Positions 5,090 to 34,477 of a stretch of DNA of 64,000 bases are shown one piece after another; position 1 is the stretch's first letter; every line of letters starts with the position of its first letter. The stretch is from Pseudovibrio ascidiaceicola (GTDB lineage Bacteria; Pseudomonadota; Alphaproteobacteria; Rhizobiales; Stappiaceae): assembly GCF_900114245.1 (NCBI RefSeq), contig NZ_FOSK01000001.1:124001-188000 (forward strand). Direction: 5' to 3'. Below the pieces are notes generated by a model that was given only the letters and a program-made list of their open reading frames with translations, did not search any database and was not told the origin of the DNA. The translations under genes were made by a program, and so were the position numbers.

Positions 5090-5611
5090 ATGTCATCACC
5101 ACAAAAATATAGCCGCCCGACAATCATCCTCCATTGGCTGTTCGCCGTCACCATCATTGCTGTTTTCATTTTGGGAAAAGTTCTCGAAGGAAGCGCAATC
5201 TCGCCTGAGAAGCTCAATGTCTTCATGGCTCATGCGGGGCTAGGCGCTCTGACTGGCCTGTTCCTGATCTATCGCATAGTTCTGTTGATCAAGCACGCTC
5301 GGCCAAAGCCAGACCCTAAATGGGGTGTCGTAATGATCAGCTTATCCAAGCTGGTTCACTTGCTTCTCTACCTCGCACCGCTAGCCCTGGTCATCTCTGG
5401 CATGAGCATGTCACTCTTTGCAGGCCTAATGGAGCTCGCGATGGCAGGGGACTGGCAAGCCTGGCCAGAAAATATCACCATCCCGCCAGCTGCAATCCAT
5501 GGCTTTGCGGCCCCAGTCTTGCTTGCATCGTTCGCACTGCACGTCATCGCAGCACTGTATCATCAGCTCGTTCTGAAAGATAATCTGGTCGCCAGAATGA
5601 AAACGGCCTGA
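5090..5611 (+). CDS. Cytochrome b561 family membrane protein
   Basis: 173 residues, four membrane helices. Histidines placed as in bacterial b561 proteins are seen in IILHWLFA, FMAHAGLGA, LVHLLLYLAPL and ALHVIAALYHQLVLKD, which would bind two b-type haems across the inner membrane. Proteins of this family move electrons between the quinone pool and periplasmic or membrane partners; the YodB/YceI-type partner is not present here. AAAGG lies nine bases before the ATG. Expression is likely controlled by the divergent MarR gene. A hairpin terminator overlaps the end of the convergent folK. Confidence 0.9.
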   Translation: MSSPQKYSRPTIILHWLFAVTIIAVFILGKVLEGSAISPEKLNVFMAHAGLGALTGLFLIYRIVLLIKHARPKPDPKWGVVMISLSKLVHLLLYLAPLALVISGMSMSLFAGLMELAMAGDWQAWPENITIPPAAIHGFAAPVLLASFALHVIAALYHQLVLKDNLVARMKTA

Positions 5612-14362: not shown

Positions 14363-14784
14363 AAAAACTTATCCCCCTCACCAGCACTTGTCCTAGGCTA
14401 AGTCCTGTGCCCACGCATTCGGGCCGGGGTGGACCGTCCATCCCGCGGCGTGGGCGGGGTTGGGCTACCGGCATGAAGTAACGTATCGTGTCGGGAGGTC
14501 CGGTGAAGCGCCATACCCTATTGAGACCACAGTGGTAGTAGGGAGTTTGGGGTCGTTCCGGAGGGCGTCCGGTGGTGACAAGAAATTGTCAATGACAGGG
14601 AAACCTGTCAGTCGCGTCTGTCCGAGAGGGAGCCCGCGTGTTCATGAGAAAAGGCCCGGGCGAGGCGAGCAGCCAATGCCGAAGAAACATACCTAACAAG
14701 TAGCGCAGGCAAAGCCTGCTCGCCTTGCTCCACCCGTTTAACGGGAACCTTCAGCGCCAACACTGCATGGAAAACCATGCGGTG
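14363..14784 (+). ncRNA. Structured non-coding element, copy 1 (candidate transposon-associated RNA)
   Basis: A GC-rich stretch with no convincing protein. Visible helices: GCCCACGC (14409-14416) with GCGTGGGC (14448-14455), enclosing GGGGTGG/CCATCCC (14426-14432/14438-14444); TGACAGG-GAAA-CCTGTCA (14593-14610, a GNRA-loop hairpin); GCAGGC/GCCTGC (14705-14719); CCCG/CGGG (14733-14745); and a 3'-terminal 10-bp hairpin CACTGCATGG/CCATGCGGTG (14761-14784). A stub ORF ATG CCG AAG AAA CAT ACC TAA lies at 14676-14696. A diverged copy on the other strand at 33646-34149 keeps these helices by compensatory change. The layout (structured RNA, ORF start, short 3' end with terminal hairpin) recalls IS200/IS605-family elements with an omega-RNA; a group II intron 5' fragment is less likely because no domain V is seen. 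It ends five bases before the sodC stop. Confidence 0.6.
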
Positions 14785-29171: not shown

Positions 29172-30356
29172 TTAAACCGCTGCCAGCGCCTTCGCGACGT
29201 CTTCCAGCAGATCATCTGCATCTTCCAGACCAACAGAAAGACGAAGCGTCTTATCTGTAATGCCCAGTTCCAGACGCGCATCTTCCGCAACACTCTGGTG
29301 CGTCGTCGTCGCCGGATGCGTGATCAGGCTCTTCGCATCACCAAGGTTGTTGGAAAGGCTGACAATCTCCAGTGCATTGGAGAACTTGAAGGCCGCTTCC
29401 TTGCCACCAGCCAGATCAAACGCCAGCATGGTAGACCCACCCTGCATCTGCTTAGCCACAATATCCGCCTGCGGGTGATCAGCGCGACCAGGGTAAATCA
29501 GGCGAGACACTGCAGAGTGATCCGCAAGGAAATCTGCCAGCTTCCCAGCATTCGCAGTCTGGCGCTCAACACGCAGAGACAACGTCTCCAGCCCCTTCAG
29601 CAGAACCCAAGCGTTGAACGGGCTCATCGCAGGTCCGGTATGCTTGAACGGGTCATGGAACTCTTCCACGATCCATTTCTCATCGGAAAGCACAATACCG
29701 CCCAGACATCGCCCCTGTCCGTCAATATGCTTGGTCGCAGAGTAGATCACCACATCCGCACCAAGTGCCAGCGGGCTCTGCCAGATAGCAGTCGCAAACA
29801 CGTTGTCGACGATAAGCCGTCCACCAGCTTCGTGAATAATATCCGCCACAGCAGGAATATCGATCACTTCAAGCGTCGGGTTGGTTGGGCTTTCAAGAAA
29901 TGCCGCTGTGGTGTTCGGACGAACAGCTGCTTTCCATTGCTCAATGTCAGTGCCATCAATCAGCGTGGACTCCACACCGTAACGTGGCAGCAGCTTTTCG
30001 ATGATGTATCGGCAGGAACCGAACAGCGCCTTTGGTGCAATCACATGATCGCCAGCTTTTACGCAGGCCATAATCGCAGAATTAACAGCCGCCATACCAG
30101 AAGCCGTGCCGCGTGCGGCCTCAGCACCTTCCAGTTCGCACATTCGTTGTTCGAACATTCCTACAGTCGGGTTTGCGTACCGGGAGTAGATATAGCCCGG
30201 ATTCTCGCCCAAAAAGCGTGCTTCTGCCGCTTCTGAGCTGTCGTAAACATACCCTTGTGTAAGGAAGATAGCTTCGGATGTTTCACCAAAGCTGGAGCGC
30301 GTTGTGCCTCCATGAACAAGCCGAGTTGCTGGCTTCCAGTTCTTTGCGTCTGTCAT
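29172..30356 (-). CDS. metZ: O-succinylhomoserine sulfhydrylase
   Basis: 394 residues, Cys/Met-metabolism PLP enzyme family. TRLVHGGTTRSSFGETSEAIFLTQGYVYDSSEAAE at the N-terminus, EGAEAARGTASGMAAV, the PLP-binding SATKHIDGQGRCLGG, and a C-terminal SNNLGDAKSLITHPATTTH block place it with MetZ rather than MetB/MetC. It converts acylhomoserine plus sulfide to homocysteine, following MetX. AGGA lies eight bases before ATG 30356. Upstream are a SAM-II riboswitch and an intrinsic terminator, so expression stops when SAM is plentiful. Confidence 0.95.
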   Translation of the reverse strand: MTDAKNWKPATRLVHGGTTRSSFGETSEAIFLTQGYVYDSSEAAEARFLGENPGYIYSRYANPTVGMFEQRMCELEGAEAARGTASGMAAVNSAIMACVKAGDHVIAPKALFGSCRYIIEKLLPRYGVESTLIDGTDIEQWKAAVRPNTTAAFLESPTNPTLEVIDIPAVADIIHEAGGRLIVDNVFATAIWQSPLALGADVVIYSATKHIDGQGRCLGGIVLSDEKWIVEEFHDPFKHTGPAMSPFNAWVLLKGLETLSLRVERQTANAGKLADFLADHSAVSRLIYPGRADHPQADIVAKQMQGGSTMLAFDLAGGKEAAFKFSNALEIVSLSNNLGDAKSLITHPATTTHQSVAEDARLELGITDKTLRLSVGLEDADDLLEDVAKALAAV

Positions 30357-30422: not shown

Positions 30423-30436
30423 TCTATACAAGAACC

Positions 30437-30493
30437 CGACCCTTTAGCTACTTGTTTTACGTGGTTGCAAGCCGGTCGACCAAATCACCACGG
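30437..30493 (-). ncRNA. SAM-II riboswitch
   Basis: Read on the minus strand the segment has the SAM-II consensus: GTGG...CCAC first stem, the GACCGGCTTGC loop, an A-rich linker (GTAAAACAAGT), and AGCTAAAGGGTC, whose GGTC pairs back to GACC to form the pseudoknot. It senses S-adenosylmethionine in front of methionine genes in Alphaproteobacteria. It sits about 80 bases upstream of metZ, with a rho-independent terminator in between. Confidence 0.95.
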
Positions 30494-30624
30494 AATAGGC
30501 AGCGGTTTTACCTCGAAAATACAGTAGGGTCAATCAATCAGCGTAGGTTGCAGACTTGGCGAGAGATCAAACTTACGTTAATCAGTGTCAGAACGATTTG
30601 AGTACGAGTGGGGCGGAACCAACA

Positions 30625-33645: not shown

Positions 33646-34149
33646 CACCACATGACCTCTCATGCAGTGTGGAACCAGAGTTCCCGAAAGTCGGGATGAG
33701 CAAGGCGGCAGGCAATACCTGCGCTACTTATTTAAAAATGTTTCTTCGGCATCAGCTACACGCCTTGCCCGGGCTTTCTTGGGATGAACAACGTCGCCTC
33801 TTTTGCCTATAAGGCACGATAGTCAGTTTCCTGAAAAGACAGTGGCTTACCCAGACACGTTTCCATGCCCAAACAGTTCCTCCGTCTTTGACAGATCCAT
33901 TTGCAAAAGCAGGTTTTACTGCCGGTGCTCTTGTATCTATCACCGCGTGATACCCTATAGTCCTGGGCCCTTCCCCTCAAACCATGCGGTCACGTTTGAA
34001 GTTCGGTTCACCGGACCTCTGAAAGGTGCGTTACGTCTTCCAGAAGCCCCGCCCAGCCTACGACAAACTGACGGTCGCTCCGCCAGCAGCCCGTTACGTA
34101 GGCATGCACTTAGTATGGGCACGGTTTGAGGCCGGGGGGATAAGTTTTT
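33646..34149 (-). ncRNA. Structured non-coding element, copy 2 (inverted, diverged)
   Basis: Minus-strand relative of the element at 14363-14784. Both begin with the same 15-mer AAAAACTTATCCCCC and share AGGTCCGGTGAA (34018-34007 here). The GCCCACGC/GCGTGGGC helix of copy 1 becomes GCCTACG/CGTAGGC (34103-34097 with 34062-34056), and the inner hairpin becomes CTGGCGG/CCGTCAG around a 5-base loop. The GAAA-loop hairpin is TCAGGAAACTGA (33834-33823). The stub ATG CCG AAG AAA CAT TTT TAA is at 33752-33732. The 3' end has GCAGG/CCTGC, CCCG/CGGG and a terminal 10-bp hairpin (33669-33646). Sequence between the helices is poorly conserved, and this copy has about 80 extra bases in the middle. Confidence 0.6.
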
Positions 34150-34165
34150 TGAGACAGTCCACCCA

Positions 34166-34299
34166 CCGGTGTCTTCCCGGCCCCCGAGCCGGGATCCATA
34201 CCCCCTTGCCTCAATCTTCCACTGAAGCGCTCAATCAATCTCTAACACCGGGAGTATGGGTCCCGGGTCTACGCTCCGCTCCGCCCGGGAAGACACCGG
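34166..34299. repeat. 134-bp palindrome made of two inverted repeat units
   Basis: Outer arms CCGGTGTCTTCCCGG (34166-34180) and CCGGGAAGACACCGG (34285-34299) are exact inverted copies. Inner arms GGGATCCATAC (34191-34201) and GTATGGGTCCC (34254-34264) match but for one pair. Each half resembles the palindromic unit seen four more times to 35490. It lies 16 bases from the 5' end of structured element copy 2. Confidence 0.85.
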
Positions 34300-34477
34300 G
34301 AGAAACCAACTGGCTGACGACAATTGGGGGGGAAATCGGTTGGCAGAGGAATAAGCCCGCTTTTCCGCATGCATATAACAAACATCAGCTCGGAACTGCA
34401 TCCACCTCTGTGCATACTCATGAAAACCGTCAGCCGAGAACTACGCCGACCACCTTCTCTTCACGCAATCACCCTCC

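Follow-up and report, generated by a model that had tools for sequence, protein, structure and literature searches.

A probable new family of free-standing structured noncoding RNA genes, present in many copies in part of Pseudovibrio

Background

To our knowledge, few families of large structured RNAs are known from bacteria, and those that have been studied have unusual biology. GOLLD, ROOL and OLE are free-standing RNAs, as the RNA described here appears to be, while the HEARO or omega-RNA of IscB elements is an intergenic structured RNA of several hundred nucleotides, and the rRNA operons are multicopy RNA genes with fixed loci, an RNA product and copies that exchange sequence. One paper describes three large structured RNAs with unusual biology, and reports that GOLLD, ROOL and OLE assemble as RNA homo-oligomers (PMC12286853).

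The element analysed here occurs twice in a 64,000-nt stretch of the Pseudovibrio ascidiaceicola genome (the window). Like GOLLD, ROOL and OLE it is several hundred nt long with a complex multibranch structure, but it lacks an Rfam match, reaches 19–27 copies in each of eight genomes, and occupies loci that are common to species yet hold differing subtypes. It shares with HEARO/omega-RNA an intergenic position, a structured nature and a length of several hundred nt, but has no above-chance Rfam match, no associated ORF that we could see and no guide-like segment in the predicted RNA. Dispersed intergenic copies, a terminal hairpin and empty sites recall MITE and REP repeats, from which it is set apart by loci common to species, covariation on one strand with a G-U bias, a conserved upstream box and conservation above that of the adjoining sequence. 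Fixed loci and apparent exchange between copies are as in rRNA operons, whereas the coexistence of several subtypes by locus and species, and the failure to detect the family in many relatives, are not. The RNA was not described in the open-licence titles and abstract openings that we searched on Pseudovibrio, Stappiaceae or Labrenzia RNA, on ROOL/GOLLD and on gene conversion in multicopy ncRNAs; a term search of two ncRNA surveys (PMC11109978, PMC8632094) found neither Pseudovibrio nor Labrenzia named, and the family is apparently uncatalogued.

Two copies of one element in the window

An earlier note on the window had proposed an RNA element at 14363–14784 (+) with an inverted second copy at 34149–33646 (-). 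Both copies are present as claimed and align along their full length, and in a DNA search of the own genome paralogues matched copy 1 over nearly its full length (E 6.9e-129 and 3.5e-126). The first helix, P1, is indeed GCCCACGC/GCGTGGGC in copy 1 and GCCTACG/CGTAGGC in copy 2, and the inner hairpin, the GAAA-loop hairpins and the 3'-terminal hairpin were found in both. The two also have a shared start, which reads AAAAACTTATCCCCC and is not the 15-base sequence that had been named; the stretch AGGTCCGGTGAA is 12 bases long and internal (14496–14507 and 34018–34007). Single-sequence folding gave z-scores of -5.69 for copy 1 and -3.67 for copy 2, with 0/100 shuffles as good in each case.

In each unit a promoter-like box is followed by a 5' domain, a middle that varies, a 3' domain that is highly conserved, and a terminal hairpin (Table 1). 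The box, CTT[AG]T[CTG]C, was found in 24/24 own copies and 22/23 divergent copies, and is followed 19–20 nt after its TT.... hexamer by a TA...T hexamer in 14/24 own and 18/23 divergent copies, the end of which usually lies 7–8 nt ahead of the first helix; the CATACT hexamer of copy 2 departs from this pattern, and ten of the 24 own copies have none at 19–20 nt. A promoter scan found no canonical σ70 promoter, and we regard the upstream element as promoter-like but non-canonical. A simple terminator scan did not call the terminal hairpin, the tail of which is only moderately U-rich.

Table 1. Coordinates of the parts of both copies, numbered within the window
Feature	Position	Strand	Remarks
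Copy 1, promoter-like bipartite element	14363..14399	+	CTTATCCCCC at 14368-14377; TAGGCT at 14394-14399
Copy 1, 5' domain	14408..14507	+	P1 14409-14416/14448-14455, inner hairpin P2, P4 hairpin with UAACG in its loop, AGGTCCGGTGAA
Copy 1, variable middle domain	14508..14653	+	GNRA-capped hairpins
Copy 1, conserved 3' domain	14654..14741	+	GCCCGGGC; long helix, its internal loop GCCGAAGA...AGCGCAGGC; a small hairpin follows
Copy 1, 3'-terminal hairpin	14761..14784	+	A convergent Cu/Zn SOD gene (Pfam) has its end 5 nt away
Copy 2, promoter-like element	34112..34150	-	CTTATCC at 34144-34138; CATACT at 34117-34112
Copy 2, 5' domain	34007..34104	-	From sequence and predicted fold
Copy 2, variable middle domain	33779..34006	-	Longer than the middle of copy 1
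Copy 2, 3' domain and 3'-terminal hairpin	33646..33778	-	R1 match, G000:C31:157646-157778

The 5' domain (~100 nt) comprises P1, the inner hairpin and the P4 hairpin, and its UAACG motif is identical in all 29 sequences of the 5'-domain alignment. The middle domain varies by subtype, many copies carrying GNRA-capped hairpins, and a long-range GGGC/GCCC helix is predicted to close it. In the 3' domain, matched in copy 1 by covariance models R1 (14650–14784) and R3 (14650–14739), the GCC.AAGA-type and GCGC letters show little or no variation. Within the 3'-domain loop, the 17–18 nt between GCC[GA]AAGA and GCGC are G-poor and variable in sequence among the own, G002 and G010 copies.

The suggestion that a parent element might hold a full ORF after ATGCCGAAG was not borne out: no such parent element was seen. 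The scanned neighbours share no theme. A broken ORF start at this place was also rejected; predicted folds show an internal loop there, with its GCC pairing with a later GGC. Across the 24 own copies, the longest sense-strand frame opened by ATG is anywhere from 7 to 84 aa long, and a consistently long ORF is thus lacking.

RNA structure is maintained by compensatory change

RNAalifold on the 24 own copies gave 85 pairs, of which 32 were changed on both sides. For the covariation test, the structure was taken from own copies and the counts were made on 29 sequences (6 own, 23 from other genomes) aligned by MAFFT on sequence alone, with 500 shuffles and six slid structures as controls for each domain; kinship among the sequences inflates such counts. 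In the 5' domain, 91.6% of cells were paired and 20/28 pairs showed two-sided change, with a covariation of 0.510 against 0.223 ± 0.013 in shuffles (0/500 as high) and ≤0.183 in slid structures. The 3' domain scored 0.258 against 0.173 ± 0.008 (0/500 as high) and ≤0.111, with weaker counts of two-sided pairs (12, reached by 4/500 shuffles) and pair types (33, reached by 27/500). Cells with G-U outnumbered those with A-C in the helices by 146:13 in the 5' domain and 80:19 in the 3' domain, which indicates that the named strand is the RNA strand, with a small bias remaining in this asymmetry from picking the structure under RNA rules on own copies. RNA structure is thus maintained by compensatory change on the named strand, and the one-strand covariation, as looked for in a structured ncRNA gene, exceeds both sets of controls. 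One candidate of the earlier note, a new large ncRNA whose helices are maintained by compensatory change, thus has strong support from RNAalifold, from covariation against controls and from the G-U:A-C asymmetry.

Copies in the genome and distribution in relatives

The many copies anticipated in the note were found: the own-genome DNA search gave 33 matches that resolve into 24 full-length copies, none of which lacks the 5' box or the 3' core, and copy-to-copy identity ranged from 59% to 96% among the comparisons listed. The 3'-domain model R3 also counted 24; R1 counted 30, partly from reverse-strand matches to a near-palindromic helix, and R3 counts are therefore used below. Applied with stricter filters at E≤0.001 to 87 Stappiaceae genomes, some of which had contributed to its training, R3 matched 33: 14/16 in Pseudovibrio (g1), 16/45 in Labrenzia/Roseibium (g2, named from its records; 1–4 copies each), 2/3 in g6 and 1/1 in g3, with 1–4 copies in the 19 genomes of these three other genera and no match in g4, g5 or g7. 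Eight Pseudovibrio genomes carry 19–27 copies (27 in G006 and G010; 24 in G000, G002 and G004; 21 in G003; 20 in G015; 19 in G007), six carry fewer (9 in G011, 8 in G005, 7 in G009, 2 in G008 and G012, 1 in G013), and G001 and G014 had no match. The family is thus far more numerous in part of Pseudovibrio than elsewhere, and the RNA is either dispensable or undetected in the 2/16 Pseudovibrio and 29/45 g2 genomes without an R3 match.

The 5'-domain model R2, built from own copies only, was run on 30 divergent loci fetched with R1 and found the domain at 25 (27 matches). Two of the other five, L081 and L100, are cut by contig ends; the remaining three are L088 (g6), L089 (g3) and L090. With filters off, R2 gave nothing convincing at L088 and L089 (top score where the domain is expected, 10.5 bits at E 0.77), where one can read a box, CTAATCCCC or CTTATCCCC, and a stretch resembling GGACCGTCC. 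The low-copy Labrenzia/Roseibium versions retain the structure and the upstream box. A 3'-core pattern marked at least 105 stretches in named genomes, 80 of the 105 being listed; R1 scoring covered every one of the 23 listed loci from outside Pseudovibrio, Labrenzia and Roseibium, the only IMG/VR match and four Labrenzia/Roseibium loci, and among the matches listed only these last four scored well (50–71 bits), the others giving nothing bar one at 12.7 bits.

Searches of class and order genomes found no complete copy outside the Stappiaceae. R1, with stricter filters at E≤1e-4, matched one of 385 class genomes, the own genome; R3 matched ten of 397 order genomes, seven Stappiaceae and three others. 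In G724, from another family of the order (R3 E 3.4e-6 and 2.3e-4), GCCGAAGAAAC...GCGCAGGC is kept in a helix and neither the upstream box nor the 5' domain was seen, as was also the case in G725 and G792 (E 4.3e-4 and 5.8e-4). The helix-loop module of G724 (locus L358, two R3 matches) could be a shared RNA module.

Two divergent loci have variants of their own. At L114 a full copy is preceded, ~0.8 kb upstream, by a truncated one (5450–5511), which keeps the upstream box and the start of the RNA and then runs into a short hairpin with a T run; the truncated copy may be a derived small RNA. The middle domain at L098 (G078) is ~160 nt longer than at L095 and L097, with hairpin-like repeats, and both conserved domains are still matched.

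Shared loci and exchange of subtypes

Synteny was compared in 14-kb regions around the copies. All 24 own loci hold a copy in G002 (Pseudovibrio sp. Alg231-02), one to one and with flanks matched on both sides, the nearest flank matches being mostly 87–96% identical (one covers 230 nt at 70%). As every locus is occupied in G002, recent transposition is unlikely, and a recently active transposon was rejected; the locations are the same. Loci n10 and n20 are empty in G005, whose intergenic sequence around these sites has diverged too far for exact ends to be placed. For G010, in which R3 counts 27 copies, 19/24 own loci pair with one of 22 regions fetched (flanks 74–89%), and the partners of the other five may be copies outside those regions.

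A locus common to two species need not hold the same subtype in both. At n01 and n12 the own and G002 subtypes differ (62% and 59% identity), 7 of the 19 G010 partners are <80% identical, and at 11/24 loci the own copy is closer to one of its paralogues than to its G002 orthologue. At n01 the wider flanks match around the differing element, yet ~70 nt just upstream differ too, for which conversion within the element alone would not account; upstream of n12, the nearest match with G002 ends ~0.9 kb away. We infer that gene conversion or cassette replacement between loci fits this pattern, in a form not strictly confined to the element.

Averaged over the other 22 of the 24 own/G002 pairs, the 5' domain is 95.4% identical, the 3' core 92.7%, the middle 90.9% and the terminal hairpin 90.1%. 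The promoter-like stretch reaches 79.9%, the 95 nt on either side of the element 70.1% (30% gaps) upstream and 83.1% downstream, and the 900 nt beyond these 86.0% upstream and 88.4% downstream. This contrast does not reflect selection alone, because gene conversion can also slow divergence; gene conversion does not produce compensatory changes.

These observations bear on a reading in which the copies are a frozen or domesticated, non-autonomous MITE-like element, whose structured strand once served transposition and whose conservation reflects spread and gene conversion rather than a cellular RNA function. A dispersed, multicopy, intergenic element with two empty sites would fit it, as would the sequence of at least 40 nt upstream that 10/24 own loci have in common with another locus, the two near-identical G057 copies that end contigs, and the differences beside the element at n01 and n12. 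The 24/24 shared loci, conservation above both the adjoining sequence and the next 900 nt, structure and box kept in low-copy Labrenzia/Roseibium versions, the lack of a consistently long internal ORF, and a blastn search of copy 2 that found no plasmid or phage record all speak against it, and we consider this reading unlikely. Directly next to the promoter-like box, at ~34161–34300 of the window, lies a further, distinct palindromic repeat (GGTATGGATCCCGGCTC...GCCGGGA.GACA), which is also present upstream of other copies.

Known RNA families and genomic neighbours

At gathering scores, Rfam models matched the whole window only with SAM_alpha, away from both copies; this riboswitch (30424–30501, -) lies just upstream of a 394-aa ORF (29172–30356, -). 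At E≤10 copy 1 had no match, and copy 2 only two mammalian lncRNA models (E 2.1, 15.8/80 bits; E 3.2, 12.5/55), which are chance matches; at E≤1 the RNA of 13 divergent loci had none. Group I and II introns, RNase P, tmRNA, 6S RNA and riboswitches were accordingly rejected, in line with the earlier note, which had seen no riboswitch, tmRNA, RNase P or 6S pattern. The HEARO/omega-RNA model and those of GOLLD, ROOL and OLE, presumably among the 4227 Rfam models searched, were likewise unmatched on copy 1, copy 2 and the 13 divergent loci.

Pfam searches of 45 own-locus neighbour proteins, a mechanical choice of ORF pairs that does not take in every true neighbour, gave unrelated functions (8/45 without a Pfam family), including bipA, Cu/Zn SOD, chorismate synthase, a DEAD-box helicase, TsaD, DapB and carbonic anhydrase. 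A shared neighbour function was rejected, as these 45 and five proteins from relatives show no theme. By the same ORF choice, 14/24 copies converge on the neighbour past their 3' end. The RNA has bipA nearby in the window genome, G054, G069, G078 and probably G084, but not in G005, G008, G011, G012, G013, G022, G061 and G066; as so many genomes carry it elsewhere, bipA as the ancestral neighbour stays a lead. Matches to the cspA thermoregulator, below gathering score, lie beside the RNA at L097 (651–1103, 46.6/78 bits) and L098 (742–1099, 34.4/78).

The earlier note had also named a standalone omega-RNA/HEARO-type guide RNA, which would work with a nuclease encoded in trans. A large intergenic RNA with a terminal hairpin would suit such a guide, as would the variation between copies in the sequence that separates the CTTATCC box from the start of the RNA; this variable sequence, however, would precede the predicted RNA start. 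The lack of any Rfam family at gathering score on the window copies, or of an above-chance match there or at the 13 divergent loci, and the absence of a nuclease among the 45 scanned neighbours leave this candidate unsupported and very improbable. A genome-wide search for PF14239, which we take to be the IscB N-terminus domain, matched 0/6 genomes, but its control was silent too, and the result does not show absence.

A possible role for the RNA

The element is probably a new family of free-standing structured ncRNA genes, whose products may be trans-acting RNP scaffolds or protein-binding regulatory RNAs. Each copy would use its own promoter-like element and terminal hairpin to yield an RNA of ~350–460 nt, folding into a 5' domain, a multibranch middle that bears GNRA-capped hairpins and is closed by the predicted GGGC/GCCC helix, and the conserved 3' domain. 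As the neighbours lack a common, cis-regulatory theme, an RNA that acts in trans is the better guess, and the UAACG loop and the GCCGAAGA/GCGCA internal loop are candidate sites for binding protein. Copy number may raise RNA dosage, and gene conversion or cassette replacement would pass sequence from one locus to another.

By analogy with GOLLD, ROOL and OLE, the RNA might instead self-assemble into a homo-oligomer. Such assemblies exist, according to PMC12286853, and the multibranch fold, the GNRA loops and the palindromic GCCCGGGC would be compatible with one, but complementarity between the 3' loops of different copies is not in excess of shuffles (3 pairs of ≥8 nt against a shuffled mean of 2.7; longest 9 against 8.5), and we think it improbable. 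Kissing or inverted loops between paralogues were rejected on the same comparison.

Conclusions

For the probable family of trans-acting structured RNAs, up to 27 copies per genome in Pseudovibrio provide covariation that suffices for a structural model and a covariance-model family, and rRNA-depleted RNA-seq of Pseudovibrio brasiliensis Ab134 (reference GCA_018282095.1) is deposited as GSE263005, according to passages of PMC11796379. A bolder proposal, which we hold only tentatively, is a new class of large RNA machine found in several Stappiaceae genera, which grew to about two dozen genes in part of Pseudovibrio and whose structural subtypes coexist and are swapped as cassettes among fixed chromosomal loci; if true, the cassette-swapped RNA would be a noncoding counterpart of cassette-switching gene families. 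Fixed loci that hold differing subtypes make the family a natural experiment in the evolution of multicopy RNA genes in bacteria.
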